DNA of 64,000 bases, from NCBI RefSeq assembly GCF_001446935.1, contig NZ_LKKK01000002.1, positions 620,001 through 684,000 of the forward strand, read 5' to 3'. The notes under the pieces were generated by a model. The model made no database searches. It saw only the letters and a program-made list of their open reading frames with translations, and had not been told where the DNA came from. This stretch comes from Pseudomonas sp. TTU2014-080ASC. GTDB lineage: Bacteria; Pseudomonadota; Gammaproteobacteria; Pseudomonadales; Pseudomonadaceae. This document shows positions 1-9,748 of the stretch, in pieces (within the stretch, counting starts at the first letter, position 1; the number at the start of each line of letters is the position of its first letter). Position numbers and translations under genes: made by a program.

Positions 1-70
1 GCAGGCTGTCAGCCATTGTCAGCTCTAGGGGGGCGGATGTGCCGTCGGTACGGATCAACTGGTGTTTCAT
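1..70 (-). CDS. 5' end of a gene downstream of tadC, cut by the window edge
   Basis: An ATG at 70-68 overlaps the tadC stop codon in an ATGA arrangement and opens a frame of 23 residues that runs off the window. The visible start (MKHQLIRTDG...) has no lipoprotein or signal-peptide look, so it does not clearly match a typical TadD lipoprotein, although tadD is the usual gene at this position. The tight overlap says it is translated as part of the Tad operon. No function can be given from this fragment. Confidence 0.5.
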   Translation of the reverse strand, partial: MKHQLIRTDGTSAPLELTMADSL

Positions 71-948
71 CAGGCTTCCCCGAGGAACTTAACCACGATC
101 GGGAACAGCAGGATCACGAAGGTCAGCGGGAAGATGAAGGTGATCAGCGGGATGATCAGTTTGACCGGTGCCTGCATGGCGGTTTTCTCTGCGCGCTGGA
201 AGCGTTCTTCCAGACGCTGCTGGGCTTGAATCTGCAGGGTGTTGCGCAGGCTGCTGCCCATTTTTTCCGCTTGAATCACTGAGCGCACGAAGGTGGACAG
301 GTCTTTGAGGTTGACCCGCTCATCCATGCGGTTGAGTGCTTCGGCGCGGGGCAGACCGGAACGGATGTCACGCAGCACGATACGAAACTCGTTCTTCATG
401 GCGCCGTCAGGGCCTTTGTCCACGGCCTGTTGCAATGCGCCGAGGAAGTTCAGACCGGCATCCACGCACATGGTCAGGTATTCGAGGAACACCGGCAGGT
501 TGCGGACAATGTCGCGGTCGCGGCGTTTATGCATGTCGGTGATCCACATCCACGGCAGCGCTGCACCGAGAAACATCATCACCAGCACCACGGGCCAAAT
601 AATGCCGCTCTTGCCACTGGCCATCGGCAGGATGGAAATCAGTGGGAACAGCACCGCCATGGTGATGCACAGGGCGAGAAATTCTTCGGCCGTGAGCACA
701 TACAGGGCACCGGTTTTTTGCAGGCGCACGTCCAGTTTGTCCATCAAACGCGGTGGCATGTTGCTGCAAAAGTGATGGCTGACCAAACGCACCAGCGGCC
801 AGATCGGACGAATCCACCCGGGCACCGGGTCCATGTAGGCGCGGTTTTCGTCAGGCAGTAGCGACAGCAGAGAGATGATCAGCAGCAGCGTGCAGGTGAC
901 GGTAACGCCGAGGCTGGCGCTGCTGAGCAGGACAAGGATCTCGTTCAT
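70..948 (-). CDS. tadC: TadC-like inner-membrane platform protein (type II secretion F family)
   Basis: This is a 292-residue integral membrane protein of the GspF/TadC family. It should form the inner-membrane platform of the Flp pilus machine together with TadB. Hydrophobic segments lie near residues 8-30, 95-135 and at the C-terminus (about 265-288), with a cytoplasmic T2SSF domain between (including EYLTMCVDAGLNFLGALQQ). The gene follows tadB after two bases and overlaps the next gene by four, so it is in one operon. TadB and TadC are paralogues; assignment here rests on order (tadA-tadB-tadC) and family features. Confidence 0.85.
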   Translation of the reverse strand: MNEILVLLSSASLGVTVTCTLLLIISLLSLLPDENRAYMDPVPGWIRPIWPLVRLVSHHFCSNMPPRLMDKLDVRLQKTGALYVLTAEEFLALCITMAVLFPLISILPMASGKSGIIWPVVLVMMFLGAALPWMWITDMHKRRDRDIVRNLPVFLEYLTMCVDAGLNFLGALQQAVDKGPDGAMKNEFRIVLRDIRSGLPRAEALNRMDERVNLKDLSTFVRSVIQAEKMGSSLRNTLQIQAQQRLEERFQRAEKTAMQAPVKLIIPLITFIFPLTFVILLFPIVVKFLGEA

Positions 949-950
949 GA

Positions 951-1808
951 TTAGGCGTCGATCGTGGTGATTTTACGAATGAACAAGAAGCCCAGAACTT
1001 CCATGATGACCATGACGGTCAACACGATCAGGCCGTTGCGTGTGGTGTACAGCTGGCTCATGGCTTCCGGCTCAATCACGCTGAGAATGCCGGCGAGAAA
1101 GATCGGCAACATCGCCATGAACGTACCTTGCGCTTTCCCCTGAGCAGTCAGGCTGTCGATCTTGCCTTCCATCACCCGTTTACGGCGCAGCATGGCGGCC
1201 ATGGAGTTGATGGTTTCTACCAGGTTGCCACCCACTTCACGGCTGATACGAATCGCCGAACTGGCCATGATGAAGGAGGGCAGCGGCAGACGTTGTTCCA
1301 GCTTGAGCAGGGCGTCTTCGAGGGTGATACCGAGGCGGATGTTTTTGATCAGCAGGCCGAACTCCTGATTCAGCGGAGCAGGTGATTGCTGCACCACGTT
1401 CTCCAGCGCCATGTTCAGGCTGGCACCGGATTGCAGGCTGCTGGAGAGCAGCATGAAGGCGTCGGGCAGCTGTTCTTCGAACTTCTTCAGGCGGGTTTTA
1501 CGCATCTGATTGATGATCAGCTTCGGTACAAACAGCATCAGCACCGCACCGGCAATGGTGACCACCAGGATGTTGAACACCACATGCAGAAACAGCGGGA
1601 CCAGCACCATCAGCATGGCGTTGACGATAAAGAACTGTTTACCGCTGGCGAAGATGAACATATCCGCCATTTCCAGTTCGGTACTGCGGGAGAACTGGCT
1701 GCGGTAGAAGGCCAGGTGATCGCTGACCTTGTCCGTGAGCAGCATGGCGGCGGCAAAACCCGCCACCGCCAGTAACAACGCGCAGAGATAGAGCAGCAAC
1801 TCAGACAT
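951..1808 (-). CDS. tadB: TadB-like inner-membrane platform protein (type II secretion F family)
   Basis: This 285-residue protein belongs to the same T2SSF family as TadC. It has an N-terminal membrane helix (about 4-26), a pair of helices around 58-95, a cytoplasmic domain with the typical LPDAFMLLSSSLQSGASL stretch, and two C-terminal helices. With TadC it is expected to couple the TadA ATPase to pilin extraction from the inner membrane. Its ATG lies inside the 3' end of tadA (8-nt overlap), which suggests translational coupling. Confidence 0.87.
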   Translation of the reverse strand: MSELLLYLCALLLAVAGFAAAMLLTDKVSDHLAFYRSQFSRSTELEMADMFIFASGKQFFIVNAMLMVLVPLFLHVVFNILVVTIAGAVLMLFVPKLIINQMRKTRLKKFEEQLPDAFMLLSSSLQSGASLNMALENVVQQSPAPLNQEFGLLIKNIRLGITLEDALLKLEQRLPLPSFIMASSAIRISREVGGNLVETINSMAAMLRRKRVMEGKIDSLTAQGKAQGTFMAMLPIFLAGILSVIEPEAMSQLYTTRNGLIVLTVMVIMEVLGFLFIRKITTIDA

Positions 1809-3447
1809 GGCGGGGGTCCGTACGGAAAATGTCCATGTTCACCGGAATGCCACGATCTCTCAGCTCTTCGTAGAACTCAGGGATCAGGCCGGTGGCCTGG
1901 TAGTAACCCTTAACCCGTCCGTTCTCATCGAAACCTTGCTGTTGGAAGCTGAAGATTTCGTTGAGTTGGATGGTGCTTTGTTCCATGCCGGTGATTTCGG
2001 TGATGCTGGTGATGCGACGGGAACCGTCACCGAAACGTGTTTGCTGGACGATGATCTGCACCGCCGAGGCGATCTGTTCACGGATCGCCTGTACCGGCAG
2101 GTCCATACCGGCCATCAGCACCATCACTTCAAGACGACGCAGCATGTCCCGTGGTGAGTTGGCGTGGCCGGTGGTCAGTGAGCCGTCGTGACCGGTGTTC
2201 ATCGCCTGCAGCATGTCCAGGGCTTCACCGCCCCGGCACTCGCCGACCACGATACGGTCAGGTCGCATACGTAGACAGTTACGCACCAGGTCACGGATGG
2301 TGACCTGACCTTTGCCTTCCATGTTCGCCGGGCGGGCTTCCAGCGCCACCACGTGTGGTTGCACCAGTTTCAGTTCGGCGGCGTCTTCCACCGTCACCAC
2401 CCGTTCTTCCATGGGGATGAAGTTGGAGAGGATGTTCAGCAGTGTGGTTTTACCGGAACCGGTACCACCGGATACCACGATGTTCATGCGCTGCTCTACC
2501 GCTGTGCGCAGGAACTCCACCATCGGTTCGTTGATCGAGCCGTACTTGAGCAGGTCGTCGGTGGTGAGCTTCTTTTCGGAGAACTTACGAATGGTCAGGC
2601 ACGGGCCGCGTAAGGCCAGCGGCGGGATGATGGCGTTGACCCGTGAGCCGTCTTTAAGGCGGGCGTCGACCATCGGCGAGCTTTCGTCAATACGGCGACC
2701 CAACGGCGAGATGATCCGCTCGATGGTGGACAGAACCGCTGCGTTGGAGCTGAAGTTGATCGGTGTGCGTTCCAATCGGCCTGCGCGTTCAACATAAATA
2801 TCGTTGTGGGCGTTGACCATGATCTCGCTGACGGTTTTGTCGGCCAGCAAGTCTTCCAATGGACCGAGGCCAACCGCTTCATCCAACACGATCTTGCGCA
2901 GCACATCGGTGCTGATGTTGGACGGCAGGCGTGTGACGACTTGTTCGATGATGCCGTCGATCAACTCGGACAGTGTTTCGCGGACTTCATCCGGGCCCAA
3001 ATCATCCAGATTCATCCGGCGCAAATCGAGCGCACGGAACAATTCGGTGTGAATGAACTGCGACCACTCCATGTAGGGCAGCTCGTCCTCTGGCTCAAGT
3101 TCCAGCGTGTCGTGCTCATGGACTTCAGGCAGCTTTTCTTCGCTGACCTTCTGTTCCAGAGAATTCACGCGGATGTGGTAGCCGCCGATGGCGATGACAT
3201 CGGTGGGGGCCAGCGGGCCGTGGCGATTGACGATCTGGCCGTTGACCCGTACTTCGTAGCCGCGGCTGACGTCTTCGACAAATAGCCCGGCAAGGCACTG
3301 CTCGATCCGGGCGTGGACAGGCGCGACTTTCCAGCCGCGCAGTCTGACCAGTCCGGTTCGTGCTTTGCCCAGCTCGCATGTGGCGCTGGCGCAGCTCAGT
3401 TTGTCGACTGGCTGACCATCCTTGTAAGTGACTTCTATCTCAAACAT
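1801..3447 (-). CDS. tadA: TadA/CpaF secretion ATPase with N-terminal FHA domain
   Basis: This 548-residue protein is the assembly ATPase of the Flp/Tad pilus. Residues about 1-96 look like a forkhead-associated (FHA) domain: GK near 27, a GWK-x4-H stretch, [13 protein letters not shown] and an IGGYHIRV end. Residues about 125-530 are a CpaF-type type II/IV secretion ATPase with Walker A GGTGSGKT at 327-334, a Walker B/Asp-box region ([16 protein letters not shown]) and a His-box ([14 protein letters not shown]). A Shine-Dalgarno sequence GAGG precedes the ATG. FHA domains bind phosphothreonine, so localisation or activity may depend on phosphorylation. No tadZ lies next to it; the FHA domain could take over polar recruitment, but that is inference. 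Confidence 0.93.
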
Positions 3448-3454
3448 GGACGCC

Positions 3455-4942
3455 TCAGTCGATCAGCTCGATGTTGCTGTAGGATTTCTGGTACTTACGG
3501 ATCATCTCGTCTTGCTGTTTCAGGGCTTCTTCATTAACCGAGCCTGGGCCGTTGGTCAGCAGGCGTGGGGTGATGAAGATCACCAGCTCGGTGCGCTTGC
3601 CCTGAGCACTTTTGTTACGGAACAGGCCACCGATCAGCGGCAGGTCTTTGAGGAAGGCGATACCTTCAACGGTGACTTGGCTGTCTTCGGATACCAGACC
3701 CGACAGCACCAGAGTTTCGCCGACTTTCAGCTGAACTTCGTTCTCGGTGCGGCGGGTTTTAAAGGCCGGATAGCCCTGCACCTGGTTGGCTTTGTCGACC
3801 TGGCTGATTTCCGCTTTCACGTGGGTGGAAACCATCTCACTGCCGTACAGCTGCGGGGCAATGTTGAGCAGCACACCGTAGTCTTTGTACTCAACGGACG
3901 GGCCGTTCATGCTGCTGGTAACCACCGGGACCTGACCACCCACGGTCAGTTCGGCTTTACCGCCGCTGCGAGCGCTCAGGCGTGGTGAGGCGAGGGTTAG
4001 GGCGGAGCCGTTTTTCTCCAGCAGGTTGATGCGGGAAGTCAGCTCACTGGCGATGCCCCAGTAAGCGTGTGAGCCTGCATCGCCAACGGTGGCGTTGAGG
4101 CCTTTGAAGGTATCCCCGGCGAACTGGCTGCGGTACAGGTTGTTGGTGCCGCCATCGGCGTTAAACGCCAGGCTCGGACCATTGATAGTGGTGCTCCAGT
4201 TAACGCCCAGCTCTTCCACTTCGTCTTTAGCGAACTCAGTGATGCGCACATCGAAGTAGATCATCGGCGCGAGGAATTCGGACATCTCCTGAGCTAGAAC
4301 CAATACATCCGGGTAGCGCTCTTCGAGCAGACCGATACGGGCCATGTCGATTTCGTGCAGGTCGCCGTCAATCACGATCTGGCGACCTACCGGTTTGATC
4401 TTGATACCGGGAATATGGCTGAGCATGGCCTGCACTTCAGCCAGGATTTCTGCTGAGTCGACCTTGGTGGCTGCGCCACCTTGTTCTTCTGCCAGAACCA
4501 AGACGTTGTCATAGAACTTGGCGGCTTCTTTTACGCGGTTCAGGTACTCCGGGCTCAGACGACCTTCGAGCACAACCTGGCGGCCGACAGTGCGGATTTT
4601 CAGGCCCGGGATGTTGGACAGCATGGCTTTGAGTTCTGCCTGTTGGCGGTAACCGTTGGCTTTGGCGACGACCACGCTCATCTTGTGGCGGGTACCGTCA
4701 TCGAACCAGAAGTGCACAGTGGTTTCGCCGTCTTTCTGCGCGGTTACGACCACTTCCTCGTTCTTCAGCATGGTAGCGCTGATGATCTCGACGTTACCCA
4801 CGGCAACACGCTCGACGCCCGGTGCTTCAAGCACACTGACGTCGCCGTCATACAGGACGATGGAAGGTGGGAGGTCATAGGCCTGGGCACTCACTCCCCA
4901 GGCCGTGGCGCAGAAGAACCCCAAAGCTTTTTGAATATTCAT
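3455..4942 (-). CDS. rcpA: RcpA/CpaC outer-membrane secretin of the Tad pilus
   Basis: This 495-residue protein begins with a signal peptide (cleavage likely after SAQA, residues 18-21). It continues with a pilus-assembly N-terminal domain, two BON-like segments that resemble each other (around 108-140 and 170-205, each containing IPGxKIxxVGRQxVxxG), and a C-terminal secretin domain with VPVV and the conserved LSGL..FLKDLPLIGGLFRNK region. It should form the outer-membrane pore for the Flp fibre. A GGGG ribosome-binding site precedes the ATG. It lies 7 bp upstream of tadA and 67 bp downstream of rcpC. The length fits the CpaC family. Confidence 0.92.
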   Translation of the reverse strand: MNIQKALGFFCATAWGVSAQAYDLPPSIVLYDGDVSVLEAPGVERVAVGNVEIISATMLKNEEVVVTAQKDGETTVHFWFDDGTRHKMSVVVAKANGYRQQAELKAMLSNIPGLKIRTVGRQVVLEGRLSPEYLNRVKEAAKFYDNVLVLAEEQGGAATKVDSAEILAEVQAMLSHIPGIKIKPVGRQIVIDGDLHEIDMARIGLLEERYPDVLVLAQEMSEFLAPMIYFDVRITEFAKDEVEELGVNWSTTINGPSLAFNADGGTNNLYRSQFAGDTFKGLNATVGDAGSHAYWGIASELTSRINLLEKNGSALTLASPRLSARSGGKAELTVGGQVPVVTSSMNGPSVEYKDYGVLLNIAPQLYGSEMVSTHVKAEISQVDKANQVQGYPAFKTRRTENEVQLKVGETLVLSGLVSEDSQVTVEGIAFLKDLPLIGGLFRNKSAQGKRTELVIFITPRLLTNGPGSVNEEALKQQDEMIRKYQKSYSNIELID

Positions 4943-5009: not shown

Positions 5010-7049
5010 TTATTCCTGACGCAGGGTCTTAACCGGAAGAACCCCTTCTTTACCGGTACCGCCAGGGATGAACTGGATCATCCGGGCAGCTTCGGTGCGC
5101 TTATTGGCTGTTGTGTCAGTGGCTTTTGGCGGTTCCAGACCGATGGTTACGCCGCGGTACAGCACGTTGCCATTGGCATCGACAATCTTGCCGTCGACCA
5201 GCTTGCCGATCAGCTTGCCGTCCATGCCGTAGACCGAGTCACCACGCAGCACGCCGATGATGTTGCCGCTGGCGTCGCGCACCACTTGCACCATGTCTTT
5301 TTCGACACCGACTTCAGCGCCCTGAATGGTGTTACCGGAGAGGTCCTGAATCTGGCCATCTTTTACGGTACCGACCTTGCGGCCCTGGGCGTCGATGATG
5401 TCGTTGCCGGAAACAGTGCCAATGACATTGCCCTGGGCGTCACGGACGACGCGGGTGTTGTCAGCCACCGGGCGACCGTCTTTATCGAGCATGGTCTGCT
5501 CGACTTTGCCGATGACTTTGCCGCTGCTGTCGACGACCTGACCGTCTTTGACCGTGCCCAGGACTTTGCCGTTGGCATCCACCAGCTTGCCGTCTTTAAC
5601 GGTGCCGATGATCTTGCCGTCCTTGTCACGGACGACTTCGCCCATTTCGCTGACCACTTTGTTGTTGGCGTCGAGAACAACAGTGCTCACTTCGCCCATC
5701 TTCTTGCCGTCCAGGCCGATGGCTTGTCCGTCACGGTAATGACCGACCAGGTTGCCCTTCTCGTCATGGATTTCATCACCCACGCGGTAGCCGGTGATGT
5801 TGCCGTTGGCATCACGTACAACCTGACGTTCACGGTTGGTTTCAGTGGTGGTGGCCGGCTGTACTTGTGAGGTGCTCATGTCGATGACACGGCCGTGCTC
5901 ATCCAGTGCCACGTTCTTCTGGATACTGCCCAGGGTGCTGCCGTCCAGACCAACAGCTTTGCCGTCAACAATAGTGCCGATGGCATTGCCGGAGGCATCC
6001 ACTACTTTGCCGTCGACTACGCGGCCAATGACGTTGCCCTGTGCATCACGCACTACGGTGGCTTTTTCGCGCATGCGCAGGATCGGGTCATCCGGCGACA
6101 AACCGCGAACGATACGTCCCATCACTTTGCCGTCCAGGCCAATTGCCTGACCGTCAACGATCTTGCCGATAATCTTGCCGTTGGCATCAACAATGTTGTC
6201 GCCGACGATGCGCCCCAGCAGGTTGCCTTCGGCATCCAGCACCACATCCACGGTTTCAACCGGTGGTGGATCAAGCAGGTTGGCCACAGTGACCTGGCCG
6301 AGGCTGGCATTGCTGGTGTCTTTCGGGTGACGCAGTACCGCTACCAGATCGCCTGACTTCTCTGCCAGCTCGACCCGTGCCACTTGTGCAGGGGTGAGCA
6401 TCAGCGACAGGGTGGAGAAGTTCATGTTGAAGCCGTCTGGCGTGGTGCGGTCGTAAAAGTTCTCGTATTTACGGCCTTTGGAGTCTTCGCGGCCCGCTGC
6501 CAGTACGGCCACGTCTTCGAGGACCGTCATCACCACATCGTCGGCATAATTCGGCTGGGCCTGCAGGCCCACATCTGCTGCCGAGAAGGTGCCGAGCAGG
6601 TCGATGCGATCACCCGGACGCAGCATGCCGTCGAACGAGTTGATCTTGCTGACCTTGACGGTTTTAACCCGTTTACCCAGCTCGACGTTTTCCGAGAAGC
6701 GGGTAACGCCGTCACGCTCAACCGCATCCCAGGTAATCGGACGGCCCTTTTGCAGTTCCATCAGGGTCATGCGGCCTTCCAGGCGTGGCCAGTCTTCGGC
6801 CATCACTGCGTTGGAGGGCAAGTACTCGCGCGGAACATCCAATACGGCAACCAGCTCGCGTTTGATCGTCTGCGATTTGCCGATGTTGTTATTGGGGACA
6901 ATCACCGACAACTTGACCTGGTTGGCCGGGCGGTAGGCGGCTTTGTACTGAGATTCTTTGGCCTTCAGATAGGCCCAGCCCAGTAGTGCTGCAAGCACGC
7001 CACACGCGATGGCGATGATCAGCAGTTTTTTTCCTGAAACAGATGACAT
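5010..7049 (-). CDS. rcpC: RcpC/CpaB Tad pilus protein with a giant C-terminal repeat domain
   Basis: The first 260 residues are a normal CpaB/RcpC protein: an N-terminal membrane anchor (about 8-25), an SAF domain and the RcpC domain with LRPGDRIDLLGTF. Usual family members end near 260-320 residues; this one has 679. The extra part is a tandem array of about 16-residue units of the form V-x-D-x-x-G-(N/K)-x-(I/V)-G-x-V-x-(D/G)-G, arranged in about six groups of three. The third unit of a group often carries GLDGK. The start is set at the third in-frame ATG because GGGGAG stands five bases before it. RcpC is thought to sit in the periplasm with the secretin; the repeats probably form an extended beta structure. 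Confidence 0.9.
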   Translation of the reverse strand: MSSVSGKKLLIIAIACGVLAALLGWAYLKAKESQYKAAYRPANQVKLSVIVPNNNIGKSQTIKRELVAVLDVPREYLPSNAVMAEDWPRLEGRMTLMELQKGRPITWDAVERDGVTRFSENVELGKRVKTVKVSKINSFDGMLRPGDRIDLLGTFSAADVGLQAQPNYADDVVMTVLEDVAVLAAGREDSKGRKYENFYDRTTPDGFNMNFSTLSLMLTPAQVARVELAEKSGDLVAVLRHPKDTSNASLGQVTVANLLDPPPVETVDVVLDAEGNLLGRIVGDNIVDANGKIIGKIVDGQAIGLDGKVMGRIVRGLSPDDPILRMREKATVVRDAQGNVIGRVVDGKVVDASGNAIGTIVDGKAVGLDGSTLGSIQKNVALDEHGRVIDMSTSQVQPATTTETNRERQVVRDANGNITGYRVGDEIHDEKGNLVGHYRDGQAIGLDGKKMGEVSTVVLDANNKVVSEMGEVVRDKDGKIIGTVKDGKLVDANGKVLGTVKDGQVVDSSGKVIGKVEQTMLDKDGRPVADNTRVVRDAQGNVIGTVSGNDIIDAQGRKVGTVKDGQIQDLSGNTIQGAEVGVEKDMVQVVRDASGNIIGVLRGDSVYGMDGKLIGKLVDGKIVDANGNVLYRGVTIGLEPPKATDTTANKRTEAARMIQFIPGGTGKEGVLPVKTLRQE

Positions 7050-7138: not shown

Positions 7139-8134
7139 TCAGAGGATCTGCCAGTCACCGTTAGCCAGACGTCGTACCGTTTTGCCTCCATTGCAGTCAG
7201 CACTGCTGGAGTCGACATAGCTGCTGGGGTTCAGGAATAGCTGGTCCCCAAAACCAAACGTATTCAGCATTCCGCTGGTCGTACCCGTACTCCAGTTGTT
7301 CTTGGTCACCACGCAGGGTTTGTATTTGTTAGGTTCGGAGATCGGCAGTTGCGGGTTCTCGTATTCGAGGGTGACCAGTTCACCCTCGATTTTTTTGGTC
7401 TGTGAGAAATCCTGGGTACTTTCTTGAACACTGCCTTCGCTGTAGATGTAGCCGCTGGCTTCGCGGCCGGATATAAACGGCTTACCGTTTTCATCCAGGC
7501 TGATTACCGGACGTGTTGCCACACCCGTGAGATTGGTGGGCTGCGGGTCAAGGCGTTTACGTGATACGGCGTCGTAGTAGTTGTCGTTGTAGAAGTAGGC
7601 AAAGCCGACCACGGCACCGTTGCGGCTCAGGGCGTGCAGCTGTAATGGGTTGCCTTGGTCGTCAGCCCACTCTGATCCGGTGGTGTAACCCGGAATGACT
7701 TCATTCGTCTCAAGGTCGACGAATTCGCACTGACCCACATCAGGACCTTCAGTTTTGCGCCGGCACCAGGCGATTTCTTTGCCGTTTTCGTCAACCAGTT
7801 TGTCATTGCGGTCGAGTGTGCCAACGGCCTGGCCGGTGGAATCAAATACGGTCGTTATGACGGGCGGATAGTCAGCAACCGGGTTGTTGACCGGTACTTC
7901 CGGTGTGTCGTCACCGTCGTCGCCATCACCCTCGTCGCGGGTGGGCGTACCTGTCTGGAACTTGGGGCTGCCGTAGATCTGCACCTTGTTCATTTCACTG
8001 GACTGGATGCGGTAGCTGTCCTGAACATTGCCAAACAGTTCGGTGACATCGGTGGTGGCGGCCAACAGCGCTGCGCCGGTTACGCCCAGCACTACCAGGT
8101 ATTCAGTCATGGACTGGCCAAGTTGCTTTTTCAT
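7139..8134 (-). CDS. Large TadE/F-like pseudopilin with a C-terminal secreted domain
   Basis: The 331-residue product starts with a type IVb pilin signal: G6 followed by QSMTEY, which puts Glu at +5 and Tyr at +6 after cleavage, then a hydrophobic helix (about 13-30). The rest is polar and extracytoplasmic, with an acidic linker near residues 70-85 and cysteines at several points. Residues about 95-125 (VFDSTGQAVGTL...LVDENGKEIA) match the repeat unit of the RcpC protein encoded next door. It is much longer than normal minor pilins. The ATG overlaps the upstream stop codon by one base (TGATG). It could be a minor pilin or tip adhesin; the exact role is not known. Confidence 0.75.
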   Translation of the reverse strand: MKKQLGQSMTEYLVVLGVTGAALLAATTDVTELFGNVQDSYRIQSSEMNKVQIYGSPKFQTGTPTRDEGDGDDGDDTPEVPVNNPVADYPPVITTVFDSTGQAVGTLDRNDKLVDENGKEIAWCRRKTEGPDVGQCEFVDLETNEVIPGYTTGSEWADDQGNPLQLHALSRNGAVVGFAYFYNDNYYDAVSRKRLDPQPTNLTGVATRPVISLDENGKPFISGREASGYIYSEGSVQESTQDFSQTKKIEGELVTLEYENPQLPISEPNKYKPCVVTKNNWSTGTTSGMLNTFGFGDQLFLNPSSYVDSSSADCNGGKTVRRLANGDWQIL

Positions 8135-8805
8135 CAACGATCCATCCTGTTGAGTAGCACTTGGGTTTTTTCTGCGTGACGCAGCAGGCCCACGGTCATC
8201 AGCTCGCGGCCTTTGGCGAAGTTAAGAACGGTGGCATTTTCCTGCTGGCTGCGCTGCTCCAGCTTCCAGCCCTGGTTGAGCAGTTCGGCTTCATACCAAG
8301 CGCGGGTAGCATGCATGGTGTCGTGGCTGAGGATCAGCACCATGCGGCCTTTGCGGATCTTGTCGTCGCTGCGCATGTCGCTGACCACCTCAGCATCCGG
8401 CGGAACCGGCATGCCGCTGCCAAGCTCAAGCGTCGCACCGCCGTTCTCGGGCGGATTGGTGATGGTCATGCGGCCATAACTGAAGCGGTCATTCTGTGCT
8501 TTGACCTGAACCATCATCATGCAGTCTTCGTTGATGTGCAGGATCTGGTCCCAGCCGTCGAACTCGGTGAAGTCGACGGCGTCAGCCCATTCGCCGGCGT
8601 AGAAGTCTTTAACGCCTGTTACCGAATTAGGCACACGGAATGCGCGGGCGTTGATCGGTGCGTGGTTCCACTGAATGTTTTCGCCGATGCTGCTGACGAG
8701 CATGTCGTCCATGCGTGGGAAATCGTCAAAGTCGCAGTCTGCCTGGGCTTGCAGGCAGATGCTCAGCGCCATCAGAGGCAAATAAGTGCGTATTAACTTA
8801 TTCAT
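8134..8805 (-). CDS. Secreted protein of unknown function in the Tad operon
   Basis: I do not recognise this family. The likely start is the ATG at 8805, which gives a 223-residue protein with a signal peptide (MNKLIRTYLPLMALSICLQA, cleavage near QA-D). An in-frame upstream extension exists but is Arg/Ser-rich and overlaps the previous gene, so it is not believed. The C-terminal 80 residues (an ARAWYEAELLNQGW stretch, then a FAKGRELMTVGLL stretch) look like a small alpha/beta domain. The gene overlaps both neighbours, so it is co-translated with the pseudopilins and is probably periplasmic. Confidence 0.65.
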   Translation of the reverse strand: MNKLIRTYLPLMALSICLQAQADCDFDDFPRMDDMLVSSIGENIQWNHAPINARAFRVPNSVTGVKDFYAGEWADAVDFTEFDGWDQILHINEDCMMMVQVKAQNDRFSYGRMTITNPPENGGATLELGSGMPVPPDAEVVSDMRSDDKIRKGRMVLILSHDTMHATRAWYEAELLNQGWKLEQRSQQENATVLNFAKGRELMTVGLLRHAEKTQVLLNRMDR

Positions 8806-9748
8806 CGAAGTAGCAGAAGCCAGTGGTGACGTTGCATTTAGGAGAGCTGTCATTGATCGGGGCGGTATCCACCGGTGCCAGATCCAGCGTGTTGAATGAC
8901 GGCTCGAAGATGCCAATGATGGTTTGCACCGTTTCGAAGATCGGGTTTTCGTCAATCAAGGTGCCCAGAACAAAATCGTCTACTTTTTCGTCGAAGTGGC
9001 TGCCTTCTCCACCTTCAGTCTGAGCCACCCAGCCATCAGCCAGAACCGCTGAGCGGGCACCGACATTCAGCTGGTTAAAACGGTCACCAAACAGTGGCTG
9101 GTTGCCCAGCTGGCTGCTGCCGGTCATTGGTACTGGAATGTTCACGGCAGTGGTGTAGAAATTGCGGGTCGGGTGGGCGATCTGCATAAAGTCCTGATCA
9201 CCGCGGCCGAAGCTGATGACGTTGAGAACATCAGCAACAAAGCCCATAACCTCGTTGTAGCCGTCGACAATCTCGTAAGCGATGGAAGGTGTCGCCCGGT
9301 TAGCGATAGCTGAGGACTCCGCCATATCGCCAGGGGCTGTCATGGGTTGTCCGCCATTGCCGTGGGTCCAGCGCCAGAAGTTGTTGGCCTGTGTAGCGGT
9401 CTGCGGGTCAATGTCTTGCGCATCAAATGCCTGTGGCATCTGGTTAAAACTGAGCACGCGACGTTCGGCGGTATTGAGGATGTCATCGTCGCTGCGAACA
9501 GCCAGGTAGCCATCTTGCAGATTCATCTGGCTGGGTATCGTCTCGCCCTCAACACCATTGCGTTGATACCAGACCGTGCGCTCCCAAGCGGTGTAGCGGG
9601 CTGCTTCCTGGGCCTTGTAGGACATGTCAGAAAGCTTGGCGACGACCGGAACCAACACAAACAGAATCAACAGGAAGCCAGCTGTCATGACCACGAATTC
9701 GGTCATGGCCTGACCGTATTGGTGGGTTTTGGTCTGTGGCGCGATCAT
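8798..9748 (-). CDS. TadE-like minor pseudopilin
   Basis: This 316-residue protein carries a type IVb prepilin-like signal: G followed by QAMTEF (Glu +5, Phe +6), then a 20-residue hydrophobic helix, as in TadE/TadF proteins. The sequence KAQEAARYTAWERTVWY after the helix is typical of TadE-like proteins. The remainder is a large periplasmic region with two cysteines near the C-terminus. Its ATG overlaps the stop of the upstream tadG-like gene (ATGA). It likely needs a prepilin peptidase, which is not encoded in this window. Confidence 0.75.
   Translation of the reverse strand: MIAPQTKTHQYGQAMTEFVVMTAGFLLILFVLVPVVAKLSDMSYKAQEAARYTAWERTVWYQRNGVEGETIPSQMNLQDGYLAVRSDDDILNTAERRVLSFNQMPQAFDAQDIDPQTATQANNFWRWTHGNGGQPMTAPGDMAESSAIANRATPSIAYEIVDGYNEVMGFVADVLNVISFGRGDQDFMQIAHPTRNFYTTAVNIPVPMTGSSQLGNQPLFGDRFNQLNVGARSAVLADGWVAQTEGGEGSHFDEKVDDFVLGTLIDENPIFETVQTIIGIFEPSFNTLDLAPVDTAPINDSSPKCNVTTGFCYFDE

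Follow-up and report, generated by a model that had tools for sequence, protein, structure and literature searches.

We analysed a stretch of 64,000 nucleotides from Pseudomonas sp. TTU2014-080ASC (positions 620,001 to 684,000 of contig NZ_LKKK01000002.1, assembly GCF_001446935.1; hereafter the window), which contains a Tad pilus operon whose CpaB/RcpC gene encodes, behind the family's core, a long array of beta-type repeats. An earlier reading made from the letters alone (the sequence-only reading) had described this extension and proposed that it might span the periplasm, bind peptidoglycan or gate the pore. The extension proved to be real and unusually long, and the interpretation found partial support.

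The array-bearing CpaB/RcpC protein

The open reading frame (ORF) of 684 amino acids (aa) starts with TTG, and an identical public protein has 679 aa, compatible with a start at Met6 of this frame. The protein matches the curated family models (TIGR03177, 113.5 bits against a cut-off of 71; PF16976, 58.6 bits against 28.8, residues 123-245), carries an N-terminal helix followed by a SAF-like D1 domain, and is encoded in a Tad operon (Table 1). From P. aeruginosa RcpC, we infer that the helix lies inside the membrane. The sequence-only reading had placed the array at 5145-6265, which corresponds to residues 267-640 and is accurate to a few residues. Its statement that the protein is unusually long also held, as RcpC frames of the genus measured 239-363 aa among the matches listed, versus 636-720 aa for the array forms (some short RcpC proteins were returned with frames of at least 752 aa, which do not seem genuine; G220 (L064), the single case checked, is an ORF of 269 aa).

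Table 1. Features of the array-bearing protein and its Tad neighbours, in window positions.
Feature	Position	Strand	Basis
CpaB/RcpC with beta-flower-type repeat array, 684 aa	5010..7064	(-)	TIGR03177 + PF16976
Predicted N-terminal membrane helix, residues 11-43	6936..7034	(-)	helix in AlphaFold2 model
D1, SAF-like domain, residues 50-120	6705..6917	(-)	
D2, RcpC domain, residues 123-245	6330..6698	(-)	PF16976; Foldseek to 9gzr RcpC, 1.7e-11
L3 linker region, residues 246-270	6255..6329	(-)	
Triads T1 + T2, conserved ring-proximal array part, residues 271-400	5865..6254	(-)	
Triads T3-T6, more variable array part, residues 412-645	5130..5831	(-)	
Unit starts (residues): 275, 291, 307 / 338, 354, 370 / 416, 432, 448 / 478, 494, 510 / 540, 556, 572 / 595, 611, 627			
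Conserved C-terminal tail, residues 661-684 (RMIQFIPGGTGKEGVLPVKTLRQE)	5013..5084	(-)	tail pattern in listed relatives
Pilin-like neighbour, few repeat units of array type, residues 94-236	7139..8137	(-)	hhalign
Tad secretin RcpA/CpaC	3455..4942	(-)	PF00263 8.5e-40; PF13629 1.4e-10
TadA/CpaF ATPase with N-terminal FHA-like domain	1801..3447	(-)	T2SSE 3.5e-65; FHA 20.3 bits, cut-off 20.7
TadB-like platform protein	951..1808	(-)	T2SSF 2.9e-15
TadC-like platform protein	70..948	(-)	T2SSF 1.1e-20
Small Flp-like pilin, 85 aa	11794..12051	(-)	GQGMTEYIIIVALIAI signal read from sequence

Six triads, together 18 units of 16 residues, make up the array (residues 275-642), as the sequence-only reading had estimated. 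Its self-identity of 0.213 at a lag of 16 and 0.216 at a lag of 62 was reached by 0 of 1000 composition shuffles, the shuffle maximum at any lag from 5 to 89 being 0.165. Unit position 6 is glycine in all 18 units, position 3 is aspartate in 14 and position 10 is glycine in 16, while the GLDG said to recur in third units is present in three of the six triads. The [DNEQ]xxG hairpin-tip motif of beta-flower proteins is evident here too, with D in 14 of 18 units and G in that place in the other 4, and with its second glycine in 18 of 18. Because Tandem Repeats Finder (score 30) returned only three short rows of 2-2.5 copies from this region, a tandem array is no longer left at the DNA level, and this genome's array is probably an old one.

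Two Pfam beta-flower models match the array far above their cut-offs, each in six stretches: PF21784 (5.8e-32, 110.9 bits, cut-off 25) and PF21785 (2.6e-30, 105 bits, cut-off 38). Across the source genome, PF21784 matched four stretches only at E <= 0.001, every one within this array. The likeness to DUF3659 that the sequence-only reading had suggested was borne out by profile score (PF12396, 2.5e-18, 66.1 bits, cut-off 24.8); it offers no function, DUF3659 not having been found in the open-licence literature searched. A PRC-barrel match (PF05239) scored 28.0 bits against a cut-off of 21.2, but its best stretch, within the repeats, covers 25 of 78 profile positions. The view that the repeat itself is new did not survive, because relatives carry an annotated repeat of the same type. 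The beta-flower fold received its name in 2023 on the basis of AlphaFold models (PMC10584680), the two Pfam models were published that year, and automatic beta-flower labels are already in databases on these proteins, including the best 120 of the 257 relatives that we found (E <= 0.001 among 7996 scored candidates), hereafter the listed relatives.

The array is predicted to be folded and all-beta. AlphaFold2 modelled it alone with a predicted local distance difference test score (pLDDT) of 88.4 and a predicted template modelling score of 0.59 (the full protein had a pLDDT of 74), which speaks for order rather than the disorder that the sequence-only reading had named as its alternative. Longer strands join the triads in the array-only model, and in VIA alignments, themselves weak, triads act as modules of ~52 residues. 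With beta-flower proteins the array has in common the Pfam matches, the tip motif and the all-beta prediction; it differs in being a long series of triads with a 62-residue superperiod rather than a single 4-, 5- or 6-petal flower, in having almost no aromatic residues (an average of 0.7% across the arrays of 118 proteins, range 0-1.9%, versus 5.6% in their cores) and in having no central hydrophobic helix in its model, where the single listed helix of at least 4 residues has a length of 4. A hydrophobic C-terminal helix within the barrel is reported for many beta-flower proteins but not all (PMC10584680), so we did not treat its absence as excluding the family. Across the same 118 proteins the array is slightly acidic (K+R 12.0%, D+E 14.9%).

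The array is not the end of the protein, as the sequence-only reading had overlooked. Beyond it lies a conserved tail of ~24 residues, so that the order is core, array, tail. The tail pattern, a [FY][IL][PASG]GG core and then G[IVLT], occurred inside the last 45 residues in 120 of the 120 listed relatives.

Distribution and variation of the array

RcpC was present in 222 of 298 genomes of the genus, and nine of the 298 carried the array form, with a single RcpC match in each. A contig scan identified 32 loci, from Pseudomonas, Gilvimarinus, Methylophaga, Piscirickettsiaceae, Halieaceae, Cellvibrionales and Immundisolibacteraceae, of which three (L022, L030 and L033) are cut inside the gene by contig ends. 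When these and the source locus were given to our locus script, 24 of the 33 passed its pattern; the other nine were the three cut loci, four with array and tail by eye (L023, L024, L025 and L027), and two with another repeat (L035 and L036). The cores of array-labelled proteins formed one clade (31 rows, support 100/98, recovered in 100% of 200 bootstrap trees) in a tree with 21 rows without array that was rooted at the midpoint only, had long branches at L074, L052 and P0128, had lost L025 to a pattern filter and included L035, L036 (other repeat) and L033 (cut early in the array) among its array-labelled rows. An array-only scan of the class yielded matches in 4 of 369 genomes: the source genome, one further CpaB (L069/L074), a DotG-like protein (L071) and a protein with a peptidase-looking sequence (L070), the last of which we judged spurious by eye.

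The length of the array varies widely, partly through recent module duplication. Relatives with complete arrays have 485-924 aa and about 6-30 units, as counted by a regular expression that undercounts (it found 17 of the 18 units in the source protein). Recent module copies, defined as a stretch of at least 40 aa repeated at 85% identity or more, were present in 10 of 118 arrays, including a perfect 75-aa copy in P0093, and the source genome's own array had none. Identity to 17 distant relatives was 0.61 for T1, 0.58 for T2, 0.56 for D2 and 0.49 for the tail, and in the same 17 (alignment A1) it was 0.40 for T3, 0.46 for T4, 0.38 for T5 and 0.50 for T6, which indicates conservation of T1-T2 and the tail. 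At the distant locus L074, in the same operon type, the protein has 430 aa, with about six units and the tail. The two related metagenome-assembled loci L035 and L036 have a differently sequenced repeat in the array's place, which in L036 did not match the beta-flower models at E up to 0.01. L036 retains a FLAGG-type tail, and the L035 frame runs off its contig, its 3′ end (SLIHISEPTRPLYIS) resembling by eye what we take to be translated sequencing adaptor at the contig end.

The same repeat type occurs in a DotG/IcmE-like frame (L071, 1045-1776; L073, 4275-5004; Bflower_2 1.1e-20, over the cut-off), in loci whose gene order reads by eye as IcmL-IcmK-IcmE. This is apparently a protein of another envelope-spanning machine, of the Dot/Icm type, and possibly the second such machine to carry these repeats; the machine and the protein family are different, and the open frame ends at the contig end. 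For Legionella DotG, repeats of 30 bp are on record (PMC2639597). A Teredinibacter TrbI/VirB10 protein (27% identity) was rejected as a further case, since none of the Pfam beta-flower models matched it at E up to 0.1 and its DUF3659 match (0.048) was under the cut-off. At an unrelated locus (L065, 2383-3012(-), G017) we noticed a 209-aa protein with repeats of about ten residues of the form [LV].[ND]..G..[LI].

Neighbours in the Tad operon

Besides the genes of Table 1, the operon encodes Tad/TadG, TadD-like TPR and TadE proteins, recognised by Pfam matches. No Pfam model matched the Flp-like pilin at E up to 0.01. Between the tadE-like and pilin-like genes lies a gene for a small protein (8134-8955(-)) that by eye has a likely signal peptide and that no Pfam model matched at E up to 1; a gene in L074 (4729-5409) resembles it. 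The FHA-like N terminus was present in all 23 TadA proteins found at array loci (23 of 24 loci, the source locus included), a count that covers array-bearing loci alone; Myxococcus has an FHA-fused ATPase in its Kil system (KilF; PMC8460266).

The secretin scored 23.3 bits with PF21934, just below the cut-off of 24.3, and two BON-like stretches can be read from its sequence. Comparing the source locus with L018, L019, L031 and L034, we saw by eye two such stretches in the Pseudomonas and Methylophaga loci and one in Gilvimarinus and L034. The loci with one stretch also have long arrays, in proteins of 755-790 aa, a pattern that L074 breaks.

The array in the Tad machine

RcpC of P. aeruginosa (9gzr) has a membrane helix, a SAF-like D1, an RcpC D2 and an L3 in the same order, with a fold match up to L3, and is described as a 303-aa protein with no repeat array, unlike the protein studied here (PMC12307814). 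The two cores are distant, as a phmmer search of the array-bearing core against PDB sequences returned nothing even at E up to 10. According to the same report, oligomerisation depends on L3 and Tad function on the C-terminal hairpin; a model has this hairpin complete the sheet of the RcpA N-domain, while the cryo-EM map does not resolve the linking hairpin (PMC12307814). For Caulobacter, the bridge between ring and secretin is proposed to be a separate protein, CpaI (PMC13170226).

We propose, with about an even chance of being right, that the array is a modular arm linking the inner-membrane alignment ring to the outer-membrane secretin. By analogy, we infer from the same place as the RcpC L3 and hairpin to the same job. 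T1 and T2 would serve as the ring's fixed neck, followed by T3-T6 as a spacer of different length in different lineages, with the reach adjusted in evolution by gain and loss of modules. Docking on the secretin N-domain would fall to the tail, as modelled for the RcpC hairpin, and if a ring holds twelve copies, as P. aeruginosa RcpC suggests, about twelve arms would surround the pilus path. The few aromatic residues, in our view, suit a structural surface rather than one that binds sugar or lipid, and their near-absence, together with the variable module count, favours spanning over the peptidoglycan binding or gating that the sequence-only reading had offered beside it. The different repeat in the array's place in L035 and L036 would also count for an arm.

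Several observations weigh against this proposal. In P. aeruginosa the complex without an array is reported to extend over 21 of about 24 nm of periplasm already (PMC12307814), so an extra spacer is not obviously needed, and the hairpin alone was dispensable for co-purification of RcpC with RcpA (PMC12307814). The tail has a pLDDT below 50 in the full AlphaFold2 model (residues 648-684; residues 256-267 do so too), and T6 beside it is conserved about equally (0.50 versus 0.49 in the 17 distant relatives). With a profile of 19 short-CpaB C-termini, none of 118 array-family tails scored above the 99th percentile set by 2360 shuffles, the median of the tails being that of the shuffles, and adding the tail to the core raised the TIGR03177 score by ~3 bits only (from 116.3 to 119.3). 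Because the profile test failed and this gain is small, the proposed docking of the tail is drawn from its position alone; homology to short-CpaB ends was rejected as a candidate explanation, FIPGG and the short-type [IV]IRG end being alike by eye only. A secretin was located at 18 of 24 loci, and there the lengths of array protein and secretin were inversely related (Spearman -0.53, p 0.022). Kinship confounds this relation, and L074, with a short array and a secretin of 449 aa, departs from it; we dropped it as a sign of compensation.

A final point against the arm is one protein, P0121, in which the core stands without units. A core-only search found 9 proteins among 7998 scored candidates, of which four are array-free, with 264-271 aa and 27-32% identity, and five (P0121, P0122, P0123, P0127 and P0082) are cut, foreign-ended or array-bearing pieces with 67-84% identity. 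P0121 (354 aa, one member, on a contig of 6113 bases) has a whole core followed by ~90 unit-free, foreign-looking residues, an end that we took for frameshifted or chimeric. As P0121 is the sole whole core of the close type without units and its end looks foreign, loss of the array from this core appears rare at most, within the word-sharing limit of the search.

After the arm, the next reading in rank is that the modules bind peptidoglycan and hold the Tad machine at the wall, which we consider unlikely. Among Tad components, RcpC has been put forward as the most likely recruiter of wall enzymes (PMC12307814), and a LysM-like model (PF04225) matches faintly within the array (11.2 bits against a cut-off of 22.3, E 0.41). 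Yet no wall-binding Pfam domain reached its cut-off and the arrays are slightly acidic. Many sugar-binding surfaces use aromatic residues, of which the array has so few.

Ranked just behind wall anchoring, and likewise unlikely, is docking of the neighbouring pilin-like protein, in which like repeats would pair to feed this subunit into the ring or hold it there. The pilin-like family resembles the array family in an hhalign comparison (probability 97.2, pairwise E 3.9e-11), and Pfam beta-flower hits, all below the cut-off, occur in the source pilin-like protein (Bflower, 0.027) and in 5 of 10 relatives. Of the 29 loci given, rcpC was placed in 20; a pilin-like gene lies directly upstream of it in 19 of these and was also seen in the twentieth, L010. 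L074, however, has an array-bearing CpaB but no pilin-like gene between rcpC and the next upstream gene, the other 5 of the 10 relatives had no beta-flower hit, and the pairing of repeats is purely hypothetical. Joining this idea to the arm, one can imagine about twelve beta-flower arms whose module number sets reach and tension and whose repeats pair with those of the pilin-like protein, steering it into the conduit; we regard this picture as a long shot.

That the array is a tolerated expansion of repeats with no specific role seems improbable: recent module copies in 10 of 118 arrays would fit, but arrays have been retained across several families and T1-T2 are conserved about like the RcpC domain in distant relatives. 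Least probable of all is a lid that gates the ring or secretin and opens for pilus production, for although a lid role has been suggested for the hairpin region of RcpC (PMC12307814), ~375 residues per subunit of highly variable modules would seem excessive for it.

Both the protein and the repeat family are known, and what is new is their arrangement, an array set between an RcpC core and its tail. In the open-licence literature we found neither a beta-flower repeat on a pilus machine nor a C-terminal repeat extension of CpaB in a Tad system, and among papers there that came up under the Pfam beta-flower names the naming paper alone concerns such proteins, judged by title. The portion of that paper drawn on here reports no tested function for beta-flower repeats (PMC10584680). 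If the array is an arm, it would give these repeats a testable mechanical role. Similar repeats on the ring protein and its pilin-like neighbour make repeat-to-repeat contact worth considering, and a module-counted, self-recognising conduit wall, if true, would be something that no pilus machine we found in print has. The junction between ring and secretin in Tad machines is only partly solved, and a long array that is predicted to be ordered sits at this joint; the array clade may thus provide electron tomography with a larger marker of natural origin and allow the length of the joint to be varied.
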